IMG/VR virus record: IMGVR_UViG_3300034375_011495
Location: 1 to 24,781 of that record
Length of the DNA stretch: 24,781 bases
Strand: one strand, 5' to 3'
From: a virus
In this document: positions 4,081 through 22,014 of the stretch, in pieces
Position numbering within the stretch: the first letter of the stretch is position 1
Layout of the letters: every line of letters begins with the position of its first letter
Program-made: the position numbers and the translations under genes
The notes under the pieces: model-generated
What the model was told of the DNA's origin: nothing
Database searches by the model: none
Seen by the model: the letters and a program-made list of their open reading frames with translations, nothing else

Positions 4081-5727
4081 ATGCCTAGTATTCTCAACTC
4101 ATCAGGATTTCCCCGAACATCCAGACCCGGCGTATATACTCGCATTGATGCCAGCGCCCTTGCAGGTGGCGATGTCACAAGCGGTAATATCGCGATTGTG
4201 GGAGACTTCCCCAGTTTCCAAAGCCACACCCCAAAGCTCTTTAGCTCGAGAAGGGCAATGAGCGCCTATGATCTCAGTGATCATGATTTGGCTCTACTCG
4301 CTCAGCTCGCTTTCTCGCCCTCAGACGACCCCGCCGCGAGCGCGGGCGCATCTAGTGTGAGAGTGGTAAACGCGCGCGAGACCACCGCTCAAGCCTCTCT
4401 TGATATTGGCCCCCTCACTCTCAAGAGCGTGATCTACGGCACGAAGGGGAACCGCTTAAACGCGGCCCTCGCGATCTCAGGAGACACGCACACACTCACG
4501 CTCAACCGCAACGGATTGAGTGAAGAGTTCAAGATTGAGAATGATGCGCTCTTTAGTATTGAGAATGAGGACGCCACCCATGATCTCACTGTAGTGATTG
4601 AGAACGGAACCGCGACACTGACACGCAACGCCGTTACACTGCTCTCAGTAGACAGCGATGAGGCGCCCACGCTCAAAGACTTCGTGGCACTCGCCCACAG
4701 CCTCACAGACGTAAGCGCAACGCTCATTGAGGTCTCTGAGATTGCGCTTGATGAGATTGACTACATCACGCGCACCATTGGCACGAGCTCAACAGAGACA
4801 TTCAAGGCGCCAGCGTACTTACTGAAGCAGGCGCTGAGCTCATCGACACTCGCAGAGGCTACGCTCTTAAACACATCAGCCGCAGCCTCCCTTGTCGCGA
4901 CATCCCAAACAGCGACGGGAGGCGCAGATGGCTTGACCCTCGACTTTGAAGAGGCACTCCAGAGTATTGAGAACGCTGATGTTCAAATTGTTGTACTCTT
5001 CACCGAAGACGCGAGCTCACAGAGCAAGCTAGGAGCTCACCTCACAGCGAGCGCGACCGCAGGCCATGAGCGTCAGGCTTATTGTGCAATTGCTTCAACG
5101 GAGACTTTAACAAACGTAAAGACGCGCGCGGCAAGTCTCAACAATGCAGGAATCGCCTTAGCCTCACAGAGCATCAAGCTCATTGACCCGCGAGGCAAGA
5201 CCCTGACCAAGAGCCCTAAATACACCGCGCTCATGTTGGCAGGTATGCAAGCGGGCTCTGATATTGGGGAACCGCTCACGCGCAAGCGCCCTCGCATCAT
5301 CGAAACCTCTCAATCTTGGGATGCTTACGCCGACATTGAGCAGGCGATCCAGAGCGGTACAATCGCGATCAGCACCGATAACTTAGGCCCTCGAGTAGAG
5401 CGCTCAATCACAACCTATCTCACAGACAACAATCCTGTTTATTGTGAGGTGAGCGCTTATGAGTCGATCTTGACCTCTGTGAGAGATCTCCGTAACAGCC
5501 TGGCTGATCAGATTGGACGCCCCACACGCGCAAGTCAGATCCCTTTGATCTCTTCTCGCGTTCAGAGCTCGCTCACAGCTCAGGTGAGAGACGGAATCAT
5601 CAAAGCCTTTCAGAATATCCAACTTGAAGATCTGGGTGATGAGGTCGCAATTAGCTATGAGGTCGCACCCATTGAGCCTCTCAACTTTATCTCAATCACC
5701 GCTGTAGCGGTACGCATCGCAGCTTAA
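4081..5727 (+). CDS. Tail sheath protein
   Basis: A 548-residue protein, ATG at 4081 with AAGGAG upstream. It opens with SRPGVYTRID (residues 14-23), the N-terminal arm typical of contractile sheath proteins, followed by a strand GNIAIVGDFP. The middle (about 95-285) is a long beta-rich domain. From about residue 300 comes the conserved sheath core: VQIVVLFTEDAS, LMLAGMQAGSDIGEPLTRKRP, and the C-terminal pattern DLRNSLADQIGRP...VQSSLTAQVRDGIIKAFQNI, ending in a beta strand (NFISITAVAVRIAA). It forms the outer contractile cylinder and defines the phage as a myovirus type. The immediately following tube gene confirms the assignment. Confidence 0.9.
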   Translation: MPSILNSSGFPRTSRPGVYTRIDASALAGGDVTSGNIAIVGDFPSFQSHTPKLFSSRRAMSAYDLSDHDLALLAQLAFSPSDDPAASAGASSVRVVNARETTAQASLDIGPLTLKSVIYGTKGNRLNAALAISGDTHTLTLNRNGLSEEFKIENDALFSIENEDATHDLTVVIENGTATLTRNAVTLLSVDSDEAPTLKDFVALAHSLTDVSATLIEVSEIALDEIDYITRTIGTSSTETFKAPAYLLKQALSSSTLAEATLLNTSAAASLVATSQTATGGADGLTLDFEEALQSIENADVQIVVLFTEDASSQSKLGAHLTASATAGHERQAYCAIASTETLTNVKTRAASLNNAGIALASQSIKLIDPRGKTLTKSPKYTALMLAGMQAGSDIGEPLTRKRPRIIETSQSWDAYADIEQAIQSGTIAISTDNLGPRVERSITTYLTDNNPVYCEVSAYESILTSVRDLRNSLADQIGRPTRASQIPLISSRVQSSLTAQVRDGIIKAFQNIQLEDLGDEVAISYEVAPIEPLNFISITAVAVRIAA

Positions 5728-5741
5728 TAGGAGTCTGAAAA

Positions 5742-6170
5742 ATGCCAGCATATCGAGGAATTAGCGGCGCAAGTTGTAAGGTTTTCCTTAGCGCGACGGG
5801 AACAGAGATAGGATGGGCCACTGGTGTAAATGTCAGTGAAAATATCCAGACTCAGCGCGTTGACGTGATCGGTGAGATTGATAGTCAAGAGATTATCCCT
5901 GTACGACGCACAGCCACTTTAACAGTAGACGCGATCAGGATCAGCAAGCAGGCGCTTGAGGATAATGGATCTTGGCAAAAGGGCTCCACTAACGACATCC
6001 TAAACGCGGGTGGAATTAGCATGAGCGTAATTGACGAGAACACCCAAGAGACACTCTTAACGCTTGAGGGATGCAGGCCCACGACACGCAACTTTAGAGT
6101 AGACAGCTCTTCACTCTTCAGCGAGAATCTAAGCTTTGAAGTGAGACGAATCGTATATCCTAACGAGTAA
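5742..6170 (+). CDS. Tail tube protein
   Basis: A 142-residue protein starting at an ATG with TAGGAG 8 bases upstream. It lies directly after the sheath gene and has the size of contractile-tail tube proteins. The pattern ATGVNVSENIQTQRVDVIGEID, then PVRRTATLTVDAIRI, and a C-terminal strand set (NFRVDSSSLFSENLSFEVRRI) fits the tube beta-barrel: a strand, a loop with ENIQ, and alternating strands that stack in hexameric rings. It is the inner tube through which DNA passes. Size, order and pattern all agree, so confidence is high. Confidence 0.85.
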   Translation: MPAYRGISGASCKVFLSATGTEIGWATGVNVSENIQTQRVDVIGEIDSQEIIPVRRTATLTVDAIRISKQALEDNGSWQKGSTNDILNAGGISMSVIDENTQETLLTLEGCRPTTRNFRVDSSSLFSENLSFEVRRIVYPNE

Positions 6171-6173
6171 ACC

Positions 6174-6632
6174 ATGAGCTTGAGCGACATCAGAGACAAG
6201 AGCGAAAACGCGACACCCCCCGCCCCAATCACACCCGAGATCACAGGCGCTGAGAAGGTGTTACATATTGAATTTGAGCTTCAGGGCCAGACCCTAAGCG
6301 CAAGTGTTGTGAGTTCCATCTTAAGCTTTGATCAGACGCTCAAGCGAGACCGCGCGCTTGTTCAAATGGCAGCTCCTGAGCGTTATGATGATCTACCCGC
6401 GATGGCAAAGCTCAGAATCTACGCTCTAGCCACACTCTCACAAGCGCTCAAGAATCCGCCTCCTTGGTTGGATGAATGGTTAGGGAGATTTGACCCTTTA
6501 CTCTTTGCGGTCTACGAGGAGGTGAGCGCCCATGAGCGCGCCTTTTTTCGAGTCGGCATGGAAGCGAGCGAAGAGGACGAGGGATCAACACCCCTTGTTA
6601 AAATCAGGTCGCTTACACCCCCCGCCCCTTGA
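6174..6632 (+). CDS. Tail assembly chaperone, upstream frame (gpG-like)
   Basis: A 152-residue protein between tube and tape-measure genes, the canonical place for lambda G / P2 E-type tail assembly chaperones. It contains LHIEFELQGQTLSA, then MAKLRIYALATLSQALKNPPPWLDEWLGRFDPLLFAVYEEV, a helical pattern common to these chaperones. It ends with an acidic stretch (EASEEDEG) and STPLVKIRSLTPPAP. A second frame, offset by +1 (equivalently -2), is open from 6526 to 6828, covers its 3' end, and could be joined by ribosomal frameshifting. Its product would coat the tape measure during tube polymerisation and be absent from the virion. The chaperone role is inferred from order and pattern. Confidence 0.75.
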   Translation: MSLSDIRDKSENATPPAPITPEITGAEKVLHIEFELQGQTLSASVVSSILSFDQTLKRDRALVQMAAPERYDDLPAMAKLRIYALATLSQALKNPPPWLDEWLGRFDPLLFAVYEEVSAHERAFFRVGMEASEEDEGSTPLVKIRSLTPPAP

Positions 6633-6828
6633 GCCCTCAGAGATCGACCCTACGAGATTCAAAGCGCACCCCGCGCAGATCTATGAGCATGTTCTTTTGA
6701 CCCTTGATGAGGATCAGTTTAGGGCATTGGCCCCCGAAGAGGATCAACTCAAAGCCGATCAACCCGCCGAAACAGGGATTGCATGGATCGATGAACTAGA
6801 GCGCAAGCTCTATGAGAAGAGGGAATAG
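6532..6828 (+). CDS. Tail assembly chaperone, downstream frame (T-like extension)
   Basis: Offset +1 (or -2) from the upstream chaperone. Read from its own ATG at 6532 it encodes 98 residues. A perfect anti-SD match AGGAGGTGA lies at 6517-6525, so independent initiation is possible. Alternatively it is reached by frameshifting to give a fusion of about 217 residues. Residues translated inside the overlap (FESAWKRAKRTRDQHPLLK) look like shadow sequence, while those after 6633 (EPSEIDPTRFKAHPAQIYEHVL and an acidic helix) look like a genuine protein. That favours the fusion joined near the end of the first frame. Its stop lies 3 bases before the tape-measure start. It would supply the tape-measure-binding T domain. 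Confidence 0.65.
   Translation: MSAPFFESAWKRAKRTRDQHPLLKSGRLHPPPLEPSEIDPTRFKAHPAQIYEHVLLTLDEDQFRALAPEEDQLKADQPAETGIAWIDELERKLYEKRE
6618..6632 (+). other. Candidate programmed frameshift site (C6 run before stop)
   Basis: In the upstream frame the last codons read CCC CCC GCC CCT TGA. A prolyl-tRNA on the six-C run can re-pair perfectly after a +1 or a -2 slip, and either enters the downstream frame. The CCT TGA end resembles the CCC TGA context reported for +1 shifting in Listeria phage PSA; phage Mu uses a -2 shift in the equivalent gene. A second possible site is TTT TTT CGA at 6543-6551, where tRNA-Phe could move from TTT to TTC. Confidence 0.5.
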
Positions 6829-6831
6829 ACA

Positions 6832-8337
6832 ATGGCTCAGGAAGCTCAGATCAAAGTCAACATTGACGATAATGAGGCGCTTCAGGCCTTGAGGGAGATG
6901 AGCGCGCTTGTCGCTCAAATCTCGGAAGGGCTTGGAGGGTTAAGTGTGCCCCCTGGAGCAATCCCAAGCGCCGCCCCTCCACCAAGCGCAGCCCCTTCAC
7001 CAGAAGGAGCACCTGAAGAGGAAGAGCGAAGAGCGAGCCTGAAGAGGGTTCTCAAAGCAGAGGCACAAGCCACCATAGACACGCTCACCTCTCCTATGAG
7101 CATGAGTCATGTGACCCAGCGCTTCAGCTCTATGCTGAAGAACGTAGCTAAAACCCTACCCTTGGGCATGGGCGCGCCTCTAGCGCTTGCAGGCGCCGCC
7201 TTTCAGGGCTTGAGCGCATCTCTTCAAGCGCGACAAGCCCGTTTAGGTGAGGTGATGGGACTCGAAGCGCAAGAGGCTGAGATTTCAGGAATGATCGACA
7301 CGCCCAGCGCTCAAGCCTTTGCACAGGATCGAGCGAAAGCCCTCGAGAGTTTAGGGCTCGATCCTATGACAGCGCGCCAGCTGATCACAGGCACCGCCAG
7401 CGCGGTAGGTTTTCAGGCAACAGAACAAGATTTTAGTAGTTTCAGATTATCCCAACTTGCAGCCGCAGAGAGATCAGGAGTGAGCGCGGGTTCCATCGCT
7501 TCCCTCGCCGGCCTGATCGCACAAAGCACAGGTGACAGCGTAGGGCAAGCGCTTGATCAATCGCTCAGTCTGCGAAATCTCGCTGAATCTCAGATGGATC
7601 TCAGAGGCGCAGGCGTTGAGCAGTTTCTAAGCGCGATAGGGGGGATCGTCGATAACCTCACCTCACGAGGAATCACAGCTCAACCTACTAGCATAGCCCA
7701 GACCCTTGGAGGTATTGCGCGCGCGACAGGCACACGCGGGCAGCGCCCCGCGCAGATCTTCCAAGGTCTGCAAAGCTTAGGAAGAGGCGCATTTAGTGAG
7801 ATATCCGCACCTTTTCAGCAACTCGGACAGATGGCCGTTTTAGCTGATATCTATTCGAGATCAGGCGATATCTTCAGCGCGCAACAAGAAGCCGAGCGCC
7901 TGCAAGCAGACCCCTCTAATATTCCTCAAATCCTCGCGAGAGGGTTAGGAGGCCAGGCAGGACAAGCCGCGCTTGCTTCAATTCAGGGCATCAGCGCCTT
8001 TGACGCCACACGCTTGATAGAGGGCATTGATTTAGGTGCTGATGTCAGAATGAGACAATCACCCGCGCAAGTCGCGCAGAGCCTCCAGCTGAGCGCCGCG
8101 CAAGCCGCGCAGACAGGGCAGACCTTGAGAGGCTTGAGAGACCCTCAGAGCACAGCCATCTTTCAGAAGATGATTGAGATTGGAGGCGCCTCAGAGCGCA
8201 ATGTACTGAAGATGAGCGAGAACATTGACGCGATTATCAAACTCACTGATATCGCGCTAGGCATACAGAGCGCCTTGACAGGCTCTGTCAACCTATTCTC
8301 AACAGCGCTCAATACTCTACAGAGGATGATCCCATGA
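6832..8337 (+). CDS. Tape measure protein (short)
   Basis: A 501-residue protein in the tape-measure slot, between the chaperone pair and the baseplate hub. It is almost wholly helical and rich in Ala, Gln and Gly. It has a Pro/Ala-rich linker at about 43-66, a hydrophobic stretch near 108-128 (PLGMGAPLALAGAAFQGL) and a second at the C-terminus (ALGIQSALTGSVNLF). With the usual rule of about 1.5 angstrom per residue the tail would be roughly 75 nm, short for a myovirus. No lysozyme or peptidase domain is visible. Its last bases overlap the hub start (ATGA). Function: sets tail length and is ejected with the DNA. Confidence 0.75.
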   Translation: MAQEAQIKVNIDDNEALQALREMSALVAQISEGLGGLSVPPGAIPSAAPPPSAAPSPEGAPEEEERRASLKRVLKAEAQATIDTLTSPMSMSHVTQRFSSMLKNVAKTLPLGMGAPLALAGAAFQGLSASLQARQARLGEVMGLEAQEAEISGMIDTPSAQAFAQDRAKALESLGLDPMTARQLITGTASAVGFQATEQDFSSFRLSQLAAAERSGVSAGSIASLAGLIAQSTGDSVGQALDQSLSLRNLAESQMDLRGAGVEQFLSAIGGIVDNLTSRGITAQPTSIAQTLGGIARATGTRGQRPAQIFQGLQSLGRGAFSEISAPFQQLGQMAVLADIYSRSGDIFSAQQEAERLQADPSNIPQILARGLGGQAGQAALASIQGISAFDATRLIEGIDLGADVRMRQSPAQVAQSLQLSAAQAAQTGQTLRGLRDPQSTAIFQKMIEIGGASERNVLKMSENIDAIIKLTDIALGIQSALTGSVNLFSTALNTLQRMIP

Positions 8338-17796: not shown

Positions 17797-17968
17797 GCGC
17801 AAGGACTTAGAGTGGATATGGCGAGGTGTTTCACTGCTCGTTTTACCCCTGTTAGGCTGGATTATCCAACTCAGCGCCGATCTCTCAAGAGCTCAGGTAG
17901 AGCGACATCAAAGCGCTCAAAGCCCAACAAATAAAGTGATCAATCTTGGATCACATGACGCCCTGTAG
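17786..17968 (+). CDS. Small single-span membrane protein (lysis-accessory candidate)
   Basis: A 60-residue protein whose ATG overlaps the end of the holin candidate and follows AAAGGGG. It has a charged N-terminus (METERKDLEW), one hydrophobic segment near 13-29 (GVSLLVLPLLGWIIQL) and a polar C-terminus (DLSRAQVERHQSAQS). This layout fits an antiholin, a spanin-like or another accessory protein of the lysis cassette. Its last 29 bases overlap the 3' end of the polymerase gene on the other strand. The RBS and coupling support a real gene; the function is a guess from context. Confidence 0.5.
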   Translation: METERKDLEWIWRGVSLLVLPLLGWIIQLSADLSRAQVERHQSAQSPTNKVINLGSHDAL

Positions 17969-19814
17969 CGTCTCGAAGCTCCTCTATCCCCTTAGACCAT
18001 CGACGAGAAACCCACGCTTCAGCCTGCATATTGAGATCAGGTGTAAAGGGCTTCATCGCTTGGAGCATCAGCCGCGCGAGCTCATCAGCCGCTTCAGGTG
18101 CTCTCTCTTCAGGCACCTCAAGAATGATCTCATCATGGATGAAGAGGACAGGTCGCGAACCGTATAACGGGCTCTTAGGCTCCATCCAAGAGGCCCTCAC
18201 CACATCATAGAGCGCGCTCTTAGCTCCATCCGCAACTAACCCCTGAAAATAAGAATTAGCCGAGTCAGTGAAGCCGATTCCCCCACGCCGCCGCCCGCTG
18301 TAATGTTGCTCCAACCATCCTCGCTCAACTGCGCTTTTAACGTGGTTGAAATACCCGCGCATCTCAGGCCAGCGATTGAACCAAGCGCGCTTAAGCTCTT
18401 CAGCGCGCTCTTCATCGATCTTGAGCCCGTACCCTTTCGCGAAGCCCACCAGACCCGCCACCCCAAGCCCGCCGGGGAGACCGAAGTTAGGGATCTTTGC
18501 GAGCTTTCGTAGTTTGTTGATCTCAGGATCTTGAGCGGCTTTGAGCTCGAGAGCGCGCTCATAGGTCACGCCCGCGAGATCAGCGGCTAAAGCTAAGTGG
18601 AGATCACGCCCTTGATTGATCGTCCGCGCCATCTCACTATCAAGCCCAAGATTCACGCATACTTGAGCGAGCGCTAAGAGCTCAGCCGTGGAGTAATCAC
18701 AGCCTACATAGACATAATTTTCTCTCGGCTCAAAGCACTCCCTCACACCGCCCTCTTGAGGCAACTGCTGTAGATTTGGCTTCACGCAGCTAGTTCGCCC
18801 CGACTTCACCAAGACATTCCAACGAGGGTTAAGCGGGCGCTCAGTCGCACTCTCAACGGTAGGTGTAAAAGTACCTGAAACCTTATCTAATTTCAGCCAC
18901 TTAGCGAGCTTTAACAAGATCTCGCTACCACTATCAACAAGCACTTCATCAGAGGTTTGAATTAACCCTGTTTGGGAGCGTGGTGCGTCCTCTCCATAAC
19001 AGGCTTCAATGACTGCACGAATCGCGCTCATATCGCGCTTCCCGTCACTCTTGAGCAACCCAAACTCTTTAAGCTCACGCTCAAGTTCAGCGCGCTCTTG
19101 AGTGAGATCATTCGTAAAGGCGTCCACTCGATCTCTTGAAGTTCTCAAGCCCCAAATCTCAAGGTGATGCAGCGCCCAAGCCGCTTTTACTTGCAGCTCA
19201 AAAGAGGCCATTGAGCGATATTCGCCGCGCTGATTGTGTTTGATGTTGAGCAGGCGCTCTTGTTGGCGCTCAAAGATCTGGTGAGTAATCCGCGCATCCT
19301 CGAGAGCGTATGAGCGCGCCTCTTCACTCCACTCTTCTAGAGGTATCCCGATTAGGCGTCCGTATTGGTAGCGCGGTGACTTTGGATCAAGCTTCTGATC
19401 GCTGAGATCGAGGTCTAATAGACCGCTCGCAAGCTGCGCTAAGCTGACCCCTTGAGAGATGATCGAGCGCCCAATCTCAGGATGTGAATCCCATCCATGA
19501 TAGAGTGCATAGAGCCGCTCATGGATGCCTGTATCCCATACCCTCCCTAGATCGTAGAGCCTCCATATATGAGGAGCTAAAGACGGGCGATGTTTCAGGA
19601 TCACAGCTAGATCAAAGCTCACATTGTGACCAATGAGCCAACCTTGATCTAAGCGTAGCCAGCGCTCAATTAAATCGCACCCTTCATCAGGAGTCAGCAG
19701 CTCATGAGCCTTGCCTGTAGAGGCGCTCATGCAAGCCATTCTCGGCGCTTTGCGACCTCGCCCGATTAGCTCCGTCTCACAATCAATTGTGAGGTGTACA
19801 AGTTGTTCACTCAT
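17940..19814 (-). CDS. Family A DNA polymerase with DEDDy 3'-5' exonuclease
   Basis: A 624-residue protein. The frame opens at a TTG (19832), but the ATG at 19814 overlaps the upstream TGA as ATGA and precedes the exonuclease motif, so I start there. Exonuclease: D11/E13 in IDCETE, D68 in GHNVSFDLAV, and Y169-x3-D173 in YALEDARITH. Polymerase: SGRTSCVKPNLQQLPQ (338-353), motif A D373 in VGCDYSTAE, O-helix R436...K440..NFG (RKLAKIPNFGLPGG) and motif C H560-D561-E562. No 5'-nuclease domain. The usual YG after NFG is replaced by PGG. It would replicate the phage genome, with SSB and nuclease encoded just upstream in the same operon. Confidence 0.93.
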   Translation of the reverse strand: MSEQLVHLTIDCETELIGRGRKAPRMACMSASTGKAHELLTPDEGCDLIERWLRLDQGWLIGHNVSFDLAVILKHRPSLAPHIWRLYDLGRVWDTGIHERLYALYHGWDSHPEIGRSIISQGVSLAQLASGLLDLDLSDQKLDPKSPRYQYGRLIGIPLEEWSEEARSYALEDARITHQIFERQQERLLNIKHNQRGEYRSMASFELQVKAAWALHHLEIWGLRTSRDRVDAFTNDLTQERAELERELKEFGLLKSDGKRDMSAIRAVIEACYGEDAPRSQTGLIQTSDEVLVDSGSEILLKLAKWLKLDKVSGTFTPTVESATERPLNPRWNVLVKSGRTSCVKPNLQQLPQEGGVRECFEPRENYVYVGCDYSTAELLALAQVCVNLGLDSEMARTINQGRDLHLALAADLAGVTYERALELKAAQDPEINKLRKLAKIPNFGLPGGLGVAGLVGFAKGYGLKIDEERAEELKRAWFNRWPEMRGYFNHVKSAVERGWLEQHYSGRRRGGIGFTDSANSYFQGLVADGAKSALYDVVRASWMEPKSPLYGSRPVLFIHDEIILEVPEERAPEAADELARLMLQAMKPFTPDLNMQAEAWVSRRWSKGIEELRDATGRHVIQD

Positions 19815-20293
19815 GAATGAGCTCTCGACCAATGTACCTTCGTGAAATCATGACCGCTGCGTGTTTGGATGGTTTCGCTTCTCAGATGGATCTTTTTACC
19901 TTGTGCAGGTTGAGAAGGACCTGTGAGCTCATCCATGAGTGCAGCGCCGATTGATCGAGGATCAGCGCCTGGATTGAGAGCCATCACAAGCGCTTTGATA
20001 TTGCGCTGATACGCCTGCTCATCTGCTTTAGCGACCCAATCATAGCGCGTGGGGTCCTCTCCAACGGTCTGGAGAGTCGCGACAAATACGGGTCGGTTGT
20101 TGTTTTTTACGCTCTGGATCACTTTGAGCTCAATGATCTCTGCGTCACAGTCAAGATCAGCGGGGATGTAGGCGTTGCGCTGTGGCGCGGTGTCTACCGC
20201 CTCGAAATTTCCCCAAATTGATGATGTTTGAGGTGCTTGAGGTGCGGTGTTCCATGAATTGTTATTGTCGCTGTTGTTGTTCCAAGTACTCAT
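19811..20293 (-). CDS. DUF669-like single-stranded-DNA-binding protein
   Basis: A 160-residue protein, ATG at 20293 with AAGGA upstream. After an Asn/Trp-rich tail (about residues 1-30) comes a compact OB-like pattern: NAYIPADLDCDAEIIELKVIQS, NNRPVFVATLQTVG, DPTRYDWVAKA, then KKIHLRSETIQTRSGHDFTKVHW. This ending, in which a T-x-[SK]-G-x-x-[FY]-[TV] strand follows a KI/KV strand, is typical of the small phage SSBs formerly called DUF669. It lies between the nuclease and the polymerase and its stop overlaps the polymerase start, so it probably coats template ssDNA for that polymerase. The family is inferred from pattern; another OB-fold protein is the alternative. Confidence 0.65.
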   Translation of the reverse strand: MSTWNNNSDNNNSWNTAPQAPQTSSIWGNFEAVDTAPQRNAYIPADLDCDAEIIELKVIQSVKNNNRPVFVATLQTVGEDPTRYDWVAKADEQAYQRNIKALVMALNPGADPRSIGAALMDELTGPSQPAQGKKIHLRSETIQTRSGHDFTKVHWSRAHS

Positions 20294-20307: not shown

Positions 20308-22014
20308 TTATCGAGTGCCTTTAATGACAATATCTGCTTGCTGCTCTAGAATGTGAGAGCAGTGTCTGTGTAGCGGGTGCGTCGACTGAATCGTCACAAT
20401 ATTTTTTTGATAGCTCCAAACCTTGAGCGCGTCAATCCGCGCTCCTAGCTCTTTCCATCCCTCATCATAAGGGATAGAGAGAATTGATTTACCTCTACGC
20501 GCCTCTATCTCTTTGATCAGTGGTGAAACCTCGCTCAAGAGTGAGGAGCTCTCCCCCTTGATCGTGGTACCGTCCACAATCAAGATCGTGGTCGGTGTTG
20601 GGGTCGCGGTCATAGGGAGCGTGAATTGATCAGCCGCTTGATCAGCTGCCTGATCTAAATCTCTCGAGGTGATCTCACTCGCAGCTTCTTGCTCACCTCG
20701 AGAGATCTCAGAGAGAGGCCATGTGTCTTTGAGCGGTTCGGGCTCGGGTTCGGGTTCGGGTTGGGGTTCGGGTTGGGGTAGGGGTTGGGGTTCGGGTTCG
20801 GGTTGGGGTTCGGTGTCTGGTGTGTTGAGGATCGAAAAAAGATCATCATCTTCATTCATGGCGGCGGGCTCTTTGGGTGTGATCATTCCGTAGGTGATCT
20901 GATGAATGATTTGGAGGCGCTCATGGTTCGCCTTCATGGTGTTCTTGTTAATATGCGTGGAAAGCACTTTATACGTTTCGAGCGTCTCAGGGCTCATTGT
21001 CCCTGTCAGCTCGTCCAGAGCTTGAATGAGCTCAGGCGCCTTCATAGCGCTGAGCCCTTTACCTTTCCACTTGAAGCGAGGTAAGCGCTTCTGAGGCTTC
21101 TCTTCTTCAGGTAGCTCTTCACCGTCTGGGAGACCGTCGGGCGGGTTGAGATTAATGTATGCTGACCCCGAAAGATCGAGCTCAGGAGAGATCTCAATGA
21201 GCGCCTGTTGAGGTGGAAAAGAGATGCGTTTGGGTGTCTGTGATGAAGAAGCGAGGCTCTCAAGATAATCGCTCACCATCTCTTGAGAGGGCTCATTGAC
21301 GGTGATAAGGGCTCTCTGAGCCCTTGTACAGTCCGCCCGAAAAGGGCAACCTCCCCATTTATCACAAGCGCTATAAGAGGGCTCAACCTCCCTCCAGCTC
21401 AGCGCTTGAGAGGTCTCTTTTTGCTGAGCTACCTTCTTCTTGATTTGCTCTAAACTTGGGGCGATTGACTCTCGAGTCATCCATCTGCTCACTAGTCGTG
21501 TCTCAGATCGTCCTCGCGTGGTCCCGTAAAGGAGGGTGAATTTAAGCGGCTCATCAAACTCAATCCCAAGCGCACCGTGTAAAGCTACCGCGCTATAGAT
21601 CACCGCTTGTGTATCTGTCTCGAGGTCGTGCTCTGTCTTCGCGTAATTTAATGAGGCTGTCGTCTTGTGGTCGATAATTTGGTTCGACCTTGGATCGATT
21701 AAATCAATCCTTCCCCTAACCGCTGCGGCCCATCCAGGCGGCGTGACATCAAACGCTTGCTCAACATGATCAGGGCTCACGCTCCCTCCTTCGGGGAGAT
21801 GTCTCATCATCGCGCGCGCCGTACCATTGACGGGCGGCGTTGCGTTCATGAGCCACTCTTCAAGCTCACTGTGAATCTTTGAGCCAAGCTCAGCTGCGGG
21901 CGAGCTGGGCGAGCGCTCACCAAGAACGGATTCACGGAACCATTGACGCTTACAGTCTCTATAGCGGCTGAGCTGAGAAGGTGAAGTGGACCTCCATTCT
22001 TTACGCTCGCTCAA
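20308..22014 (-). CDS. Cas4/AddB-like Fe-S PD-(D/E)XK nuclease with extra C-terminal domain
   Basis: A 568-residue protein starting at TTG (22014). An in-frame stop lies two codons upstream, AGAGGTGA precedes it, and TTGA overlaps the upstream stop. Nuclease domain, about 8-235: SPSQLSRYRDCKRQW, G44...H48 region, D104 in GRIDLID, D115-H-K117 in IIDHKTT, and Q136 in DTQAVIYS. Four cysteines (C21, C217, C223, C229 in CDKWGGCPFRADC) are placed like the 4Fe-4S ligands of Cas4/AddB. Residues 402-428 are a Pro-Glu/Gln repeat. The last about 95 residues (TTILIVDGTTIKG ... SILSIPYDEGW ... ADIVIKGTR) form a separate alpha/beta domain I cannot name. A DNA-end-processing nuclease serving replication or recombination is likely. 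Confidence 0.82.
   Translation of the reverse strand: MSERKEWRSTSPSQLSRYRDCKRQWFRESVLGERSPSSPAAELGSKIHSELEEWLMNATPPVNGTARAMMRHLPEGGSVSPDHVEQAFDVTPPGWAAAVRGRIDLIDPRSNQIIDHKTTASLNYAKTEHDLETDTQAVIYSAVALHGALGIEFDEPLKFTLLYGTTRGRSETRLVSRWMTRESIAPSLEQIKKKVAQQKETSQALSWREVEPSYSACDKWGGCPFRADCTRAQRALITVNEPSQEMVSDYLESLASSSQTPKRISFPPQQALIEISPELDLSGSAYINLNPPDGLPDGEELPEEEKPQKRLPRFKWKGKGLSAMKAPELIQALDELTGTMSPETLETYKVLSTHINKNTMKANHERLQIIHQITYGMITPKEPAAMNEDDDLFSILNTPDTEPQPEPEPQPLPQPEPQPEPEPEPEPLKDTWPLSEISRGEQEAASEITSRDLDQAADQAADQFTLPMTATPTPTTILIVDGTTIKGESSSLLSEVSPLIKEIEARRGKSILSIPYDEGWKELGARIDALKVWSYQKNIVTIQSTHPLHRHCSHILEQQADIVIKGTR
20731..20811 (-). repeat. Low-complexity Pro-Glu/Gln coding repeat, G-rich on + strand
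   Basis: The coding strand is imperfect 6-bp units of the CCCGAA / CCCCAA type, giving the PEPQPEP linker of the nuclease gene. The + strand carries about a dozen runs of three or four G separated by TT or TTC, so it could fold into G-quadruplexes on the template strand. This is repetitive enough to vary in length between relatives. Confidence 0.9.

Follow-up and report, generated by a model that had tools for sequence, protein, structure and literature searches.

The viral contig analysed here very probably uses a +1 ribosomal slip at UUU-CGA to join two overlapping frames of its tail module, G and T, into a G-T fusion protein, as judged from the nucleotide sequences of the contig and its relatives. 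The window, that is, the whole stretch of DNA that was analysed, is the IMG/VR virus record IMGVR_UViG_3300034375_011495 (24,781 bases), and it carries a contractile tail module. Most ribosomes would translate G alone (152 aa). A minority would slip +1 on reaching GCC TTT TTT CGA (6540-6551): with the A-site codon CGA still unfilled, the P-site tRNA-Phe would leave UUU (6546-6548) and re-pair with UUC (6547-6549), after which the +1 frame would be read as GAG AGC GCA TGG... up to position 6825. The tRNA-Phe pairs better with UUC than with UUU, and P-site slippage at UUU_C is the favoured explanation for the influenza A PA-X shift (PMC3498833). The product would be a 217-residue G-T fusion reading ...HERAFF|ESAWKRAKR... 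across the junction; a +1 join at TTTC thus gives the length of about 217 residues anticipated by the initial annotation. By analogy with phage lambda, G would bind the tape measure protein, and tail tube subunits would be recruited through the T part that only the few G-T molecules carry, so that the frequency of the shift would set the G:GT ratio.

Gene order and the candidate chaperone pair

The tail genes lie on the plus strand. The tail sheath gene (4081..5727; phrog_279 tail sheath, E 3e-46) is followed by the tail tube gene (5742..6170; phrog_985 virion structural protein, E 5e-15), whose product also has a weak tblastn match to a protein of Listeria phages P100/A511 that is named tube in one record. 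Next come G (6174..6632), read in the 0-frame and assigned as tail assembly chaperone from its position and the similarity of its AF2 model, and, in the +1 frame, the T domain (6550..6828; 92 codons and a stop codon). The probable tape measure gene (6832..8337) is assigned by position and length only and is without a family match. A baseplate J-like gene is also part of the tail module. The G/T pair is thus located between the tube and tape measure genes, as expected of a chaperone pair, and the same gene order is found in Hafunaviridae and Herelleviridae records.

The 3' end of G reads ACA CCC CCC GCC CCT TGA, with the CCC CCC run at 6618..6623 and the TGA at 6630-6632. The second frame extends from ATG 6532 (6532..6534) to the TAG ending at 6828 and could encode a separate product of 98 aa. 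Since 6532 minus 6174 is 358, or 1 modulo 3, it is in the +1 (equivalently -2) frame relative to G. Upstream, the overlap is bounded by a +1-frame stop, the TGA at 6523-6525, which forms part of the Shine-Dalgarno-like element AGGAGGTGA (6517..6525). The proposed shift site TTT TTT CGA occupies 6543..6551. All of the sequence features named in the initial annotation (the C-rich G terminus, TTT TTT CGA at 6543, the Shine-Dalgarno-like element and ATG 6532) are present. After the slip the +1 frame contains no stops and is conserved as protein; overlap with the end of G and protein-level conservation of the second frame are further features of chaperone pairs.

G and T were folded separately, not as a fusion. 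The AF2 model of G consists of a beta hairpin and helices, with a pLDDT >90 over most of residues 41-120, and its confidence collapses just after the slip position. A Foldseek search of BFVD with G returned 9 matches at E<=0.001, and named tail assembly or tape measure chaperones (Lactobacillus 521B, Bacillus JL, LfeInf) are among its matches at E ~0.001-0.01; the fold therefore resembles the predicted structures of known tail chaperones in that database. No match was found in the PDB. The T model has a mean pLDDT of 81 and a confident helix at residues 2-13, directly after the slip. Neither G nor T matches a named family above noise in PHROG and Pfam. Tail chaperone proteins diverge fast, and a match to a named family is not a defining requirement. 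Taken as a whole, position, overlap and model similarity suggest that G and T serve a contractile-tailed phage as its pair of tail assembly chaperones.

Conservation of the proposed shift site in close homologues

Scans with G, the tube and the sheath yielded 18 loci with a readable G/T junction. These homologues are mutually related, so that counts of loci are not independent. T is in the +1 frame in every homologue examined, in agreement with the shift of a rare class, into the +1 frame and joining two tail chaperone frames, that the initial annotation had proposed. When G is aligned by codons, the junction position 6546 has TTT followed by C in 18/18 homologues, preceded by TTT, TTC or TAC. 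TTT TTT CGA had been listed only as a competing PA-X-like option; the homologues identify it as the correct site. One further locus outside the 18 (L019) also reads TTT TTT CAC at the junction.

This invariance is not a matter of codon usage in general. Across the homologous loci Phe is encoded by 398 TTT and 287 TTC, and two other Phe positions of the G alignment are mixed (14 TTC:3 TTT at 6504; 12 TTT:5 TTC at 6543). Among 9 conserved NNY columns in G, the junction Phe alone has a single codon, the other 8 all mixing codons. On the tree of tube and G, the junction Phe has undergone 0 synonymous changes; it is one of only 4 out of 34 conserved degenerate G columns without such a change, the others being three Glu codons (alignment columns 116, 117 and 122). 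In-frame TTT|C is rare, at ~0.25% of codons (15/5,801 in the window and 88/36,183 in the distant loci described below), and its presence at the aligned junction in nearly all loci therefore amounts to more than chance.

The alignment also locates the switch of frames, as the initial annotation had advised, and conservation in the +1 frame begins right after TTTC. Over the 11 codons after the junction, mean pairwise identity is 60% in the +1 frame versus 45% in frame 0. When frame 0 was kept and its synonymous codons were redrawn, simulated +1 identity was 30% (sd 2), and 0/2000 simulations reached the observed value; in a simulation that preserved shared codons, the observed +1 identity was reached in 0.1% and the observed BLOSUM score in none. 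The +1 frame is therefore selected as protein from the junction onward, and a motif, [ST]W.RA[KQR]...R, is conserved in it after the slip. Frame 0 past the junction is also constrained, more weakly, so the tail of G beyond the junction probably matters too. The initial annotation had taken the acidic C-terminus of G as authentic, hence a late shift, and the overlapped part of the second frame as shadow sequence. The late shift and the shadow sequence do not hold: the second frame is the better conserved one there and is predicted to form a confident helix, while the 0-frame tail is predicted to be disordered.

Some of these records have peculiarities of their own. In L019 (3225-3820) and L027 (IMGVR 3300046167_000869) the tube and G frames are broken by single-base indels, due either to sequencing error or to decay. 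L058 and L040 (VGTA01000003.1) represent the same 24,891-base contig, which was binned in a Deltaproteobacteria MAG; the binning points weakly to where the host of these phages may lie.

Distant relatives and cultivated viruses

Distant loci were chosen by similarity of the tube or sheath, not by motif. Phylum- and class-wide searches of cellular genomes returned only two new loci (L095 and L096) plus the already known MAG contig. Both were found by a genome search with a tube profile, have tubes that are ~30% identical, read TAC TTT CGC and TTT TTT CGC at the junction, and have T in the +1 frame. A last viral scan added ~40 contigs; with L095 and L096 included, this makes 32 distinct readable sequences, and in 29 of them an in-frame TTT C occupies the aligned position. 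The remaining 3/32 have UUU_U (L130-L133, a single sequence) or AAA_A before AGA (L134 and L138), both of which are +1-slippery tetranucleotides. The junctions of L134 and L138 amount to a natural swap of UUU_C for another such tetranucleotide.

Similarity of the sheath or tube led to four cultivated phages (Thermus phage Lalka8, Bordetella PHB04, Aeromonas ST4 and Listeria P100), and from those four to Staphylococcus phage K, Enterococcus EFGrNG, Bacillus phiAGATE and BSP18, Pseudomonas Dolphis, Yersinia fHe-Yen8-01 and Enterobacter phiT5282EW. In 11/11 the G/T overlap contains TTT CG[ACT] and T is in the +1 frame. The open overlap in the Herelleviridae amounts to just 4-7 codons ahead of the G stop, has no start codon and encloses TTT CGN; an overlap this short leaves the shift almost no alternative location. 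The phage K sequence, AAC TCC TTT CGT TAC TAA, contains the exact PA-X site UCC_UUU_CGU, and the predicted transframe peptide of this phage is ...LNSFVTNSIETLDK. In the phage K record (NC_005880.2 60035-61073; L175 829-1867), the ORF that follows the tail chaperone (gp159) carries the name 'RNA polymerase beta subunit' and is actually the +1-frame T part.

Haloarchaeal Hafunaviridae share the arrangement, with TTT CG[CT] in the overlap in 10/10 records (HSTV-2, HF1, HRTV-5, -14, -15, -25, -27, HCTV-6, Serpecor1 and Hardygib1). The virion genes of HSTV-2 use TTC for 187/217 Phe codons, yet the site uses TTT. For five of the family's records (L060, L062, L065, L066, L067), GenBank notes from 2021 give a 'putative programmed translational -2 frameshift'. 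Contrary to these notes, the TTT CGN sequence of the overlap can, by codon pairing, re-pair only after a +1 shift. A 2016 review had called the HSTV-2 chaperone shift 'very likely +1' (PMC5009743).

Among 65 distinct sites, 43 have CGC as the A-site codon, 14 have CGA, 3 CGT, 3 CTC, 1 CAT and 1 CAA. CGN is thus found in 60/65, and CGG never. TCC precedes TTT in 7/65 sites, phage K among them; the window has TTT there.

Alternative explanations

One alternative is that initiation at ATG 6532, behind AGGAGGTGA, yields T on its own as a 98-aa protein, with no fusion. The window has a perfect Shine-Dalgarno sequence at good spacing, the AGGAGG lying 9 nt upstream of the ATG. In the family, the GAG GAG codons of this element are fixed (GAG GAG GT[GA] shows no synonymous change on the tree), and the CAT that creates the ATG is kept in 13/18 members though CAC is the slightly commoner His codon (135 CAT:168 CAC). 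The GAG GAG codons persist, however, even in lineages in which the ATG is gone: its counterpart is ACG in L006, L040 and L042, TCG in L034 and a stop, TAG, in L036. In L036, L040 and L042 the +1 frame holds no ATG, GTG or TTG from its upstream stop to the junction, its next start being located past the conserved W..RA residues; six distant loci (L105, L108, L126, L135, L137 and L141) likewise have no start codon before the slip, nor do the Herelleviridae. ATG 6532 is therefore dispensable, and initiation there, which the initial annotation had offered as an option, is ruled out as the mechanism of the family. It would also leave the invariant TTT|C unexplained, and we consider it improbable that the window relies on a separate T in place of a fusion. 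This phage may still make a second product from ATG 6532 in addition to the fusion. Such a combination is compatible with the +1 slip and would draw on the Shine-Dalgarno sequence and ATG alongside all the evidence for the shift, but the ATG is not conserved and a free T has no known role, and we regard two products as possible though rather unlikely.

The remaining alternatives concern where and how the frame is changed. The six-C run near the G stop permits re-pairing of prolyl-tRNA after a +1 or a -2 shift, and was for that reason the site favoured in the initial annotation. One relative (L013) also has CCC CCC, but the run is absent in most homologues and conserved +1-frame residues (W..RA) already appear ~25 codons upstream of it; the chance that the shift occurs this late is negligible. 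A Mu-like -2 slip at TTT TTT C, considered equally possible at the outset and in line with the GenBank notes for Hafunaviridae, would allow the P-site tRNA to re-pair in members with six T's. It cannot do so where TTC, TAC, TGG, AAG or TCC precedes TTT C, while the +1 slip can in all of them, and the AAA_AGA and UUU_UCA replacements fit +1 as well. Transcriptional slippage on the T run, which would produce mRNAs lacking one U, is conceivable for the T6 run of the window, but in many homologues the run is just three T's long (TTC TTT C, TAC TTT C and TGG TTT C). As these members lack a long homopolymer, it is excluded as the common mechanism, and both it and the -2 slip are very improbable for the window. 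Every member is compatible with a +1 move of tRNA-Phe from UUU to UUC, the probable common mechanism.

Comparison with known frameshift systems

According to the phage lambda model, G attaches to the tape measure protein and T brings in tube subunits (Xu et al. 2004, as cited in PMC5009743). The window resembles the lambda G/GT system in having overlapping frames between tube and tape measure, a short major product with a long fusion, and a shift near the end of G. However, lambda and most phages shift by -1, whereas the shift proposed here is +1 at UUU_CGN. The Mu shift likewise leads into this relative frame in a tail chaperone gene, but the -2 re-pairing it uses is impossible in most members here. 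Listeria phage PSA, cited by the initial annotation as a +1 precedent, and SPP1 share the direction of the shift in phage structural genes, so the precedent stands in that respect. It does not extend to the gene or the site: the PSA shifts are in capsid and tail-shaft genes, not in chaperones (PMC5009743), and in PSA and SPP1 a CCC codon, mostly adjoining the stop, is used in capsid and tail-shaft/tube genes. No CCC beside the G stop is conserved in the homologues of the window.

HSTV-2 and the other Hafunaviridae are like the window in having T in the +1 frame and TTT CG[CT] in the overlap. They differ in their archaeal host, in the -2 shift noted in GenBank and in their G profiles, to which the G of the window shows no support for homology (hhalign probability 0.4%). 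The closest parallel in the site itself is PA-X of influenza A virus (UCC_UUU_CGU; PMC3498833), in which a P-site slip at UUU_C is likewise followed by an Arg CGN codon and has no clear stimulator. The window has the UUU_C (6546-6549) and the CGN A-site codon (CGA), but TTT instead of UCC before UUU; UCC enhances the PA-X shift and is not essential for it (PMC3498833). PA-X also differs in coming from a eukaryotic RNA virus and in involving unrelated proteins. No conserved downstream RNA stimulator was found in single-sequence folds of eight loci (z ~-0.3 to -1.1), and the Shine-Dalgarno-like element, ~23 nt from the P-site codon, is too far away for known stimulation of a shift. One locus (L037 3830-3902) has an unusually stable long hairpin just 3' of the shift site (z -3.4) that was not seen in the other folded loci.

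A probable widespread shift signal in tail chaperone genes

The groups considered together here are the family of the window and its distant relatives, the Herelleviridae (phage K, phiAGATE, P100), Thermus phage Lalka8, the ST4-like phages of Aeromonas, Pseudomonas and Bordetella, and the haloarchaeal Hafunaviridae. UUU_CGN is probably the standard tail chaperone signal across a large part of contractile-tailed bacterial and archaeal viruses, a prokaryotic counterpart of the PA-X site that would have been either kept or repeatedly re-invented, and that earlier annotation would have overlooked, split into separate genes or entered as -2. A frameshifted chaperone pair is already known as a kind; what is new is the UUU_CGN site and its wide distribution. 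A literature search found no description of UUU_CGN in phage tail chaperones; it did not cover the older haloarchaeal papers, so partial precedence is possible for the haloarchaeal site. Intragenic +1 frameshift sites are described as notoriously difficult to detect (PMC5009743).

From eukaryotic viruses, Firth et al. 2012 predicted a class of shift sites in which UUU_C is combined with a restricted choice of A- and E-site codons. This class can now be placed in bacterial and archaeal viruses, where it is strongly conserved. UUU_CGN provides a rule to find and correct chaperone annotations in many phage genomes, and the shift could explain how these phages set the G:GT ratio. UUU_C slippage also becomes testable on bacterial and archaeal ribosomes, with the natural UUU_U and AAA_A swaps as controls.

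Elsewhere in the window, the minus strand between 17940 and 22440 carries a family A DNA polymerase-like frame (17940-19832) and a PD-(D/E)XK-type nuclease-like frame (20308-22014), both judged by eye.
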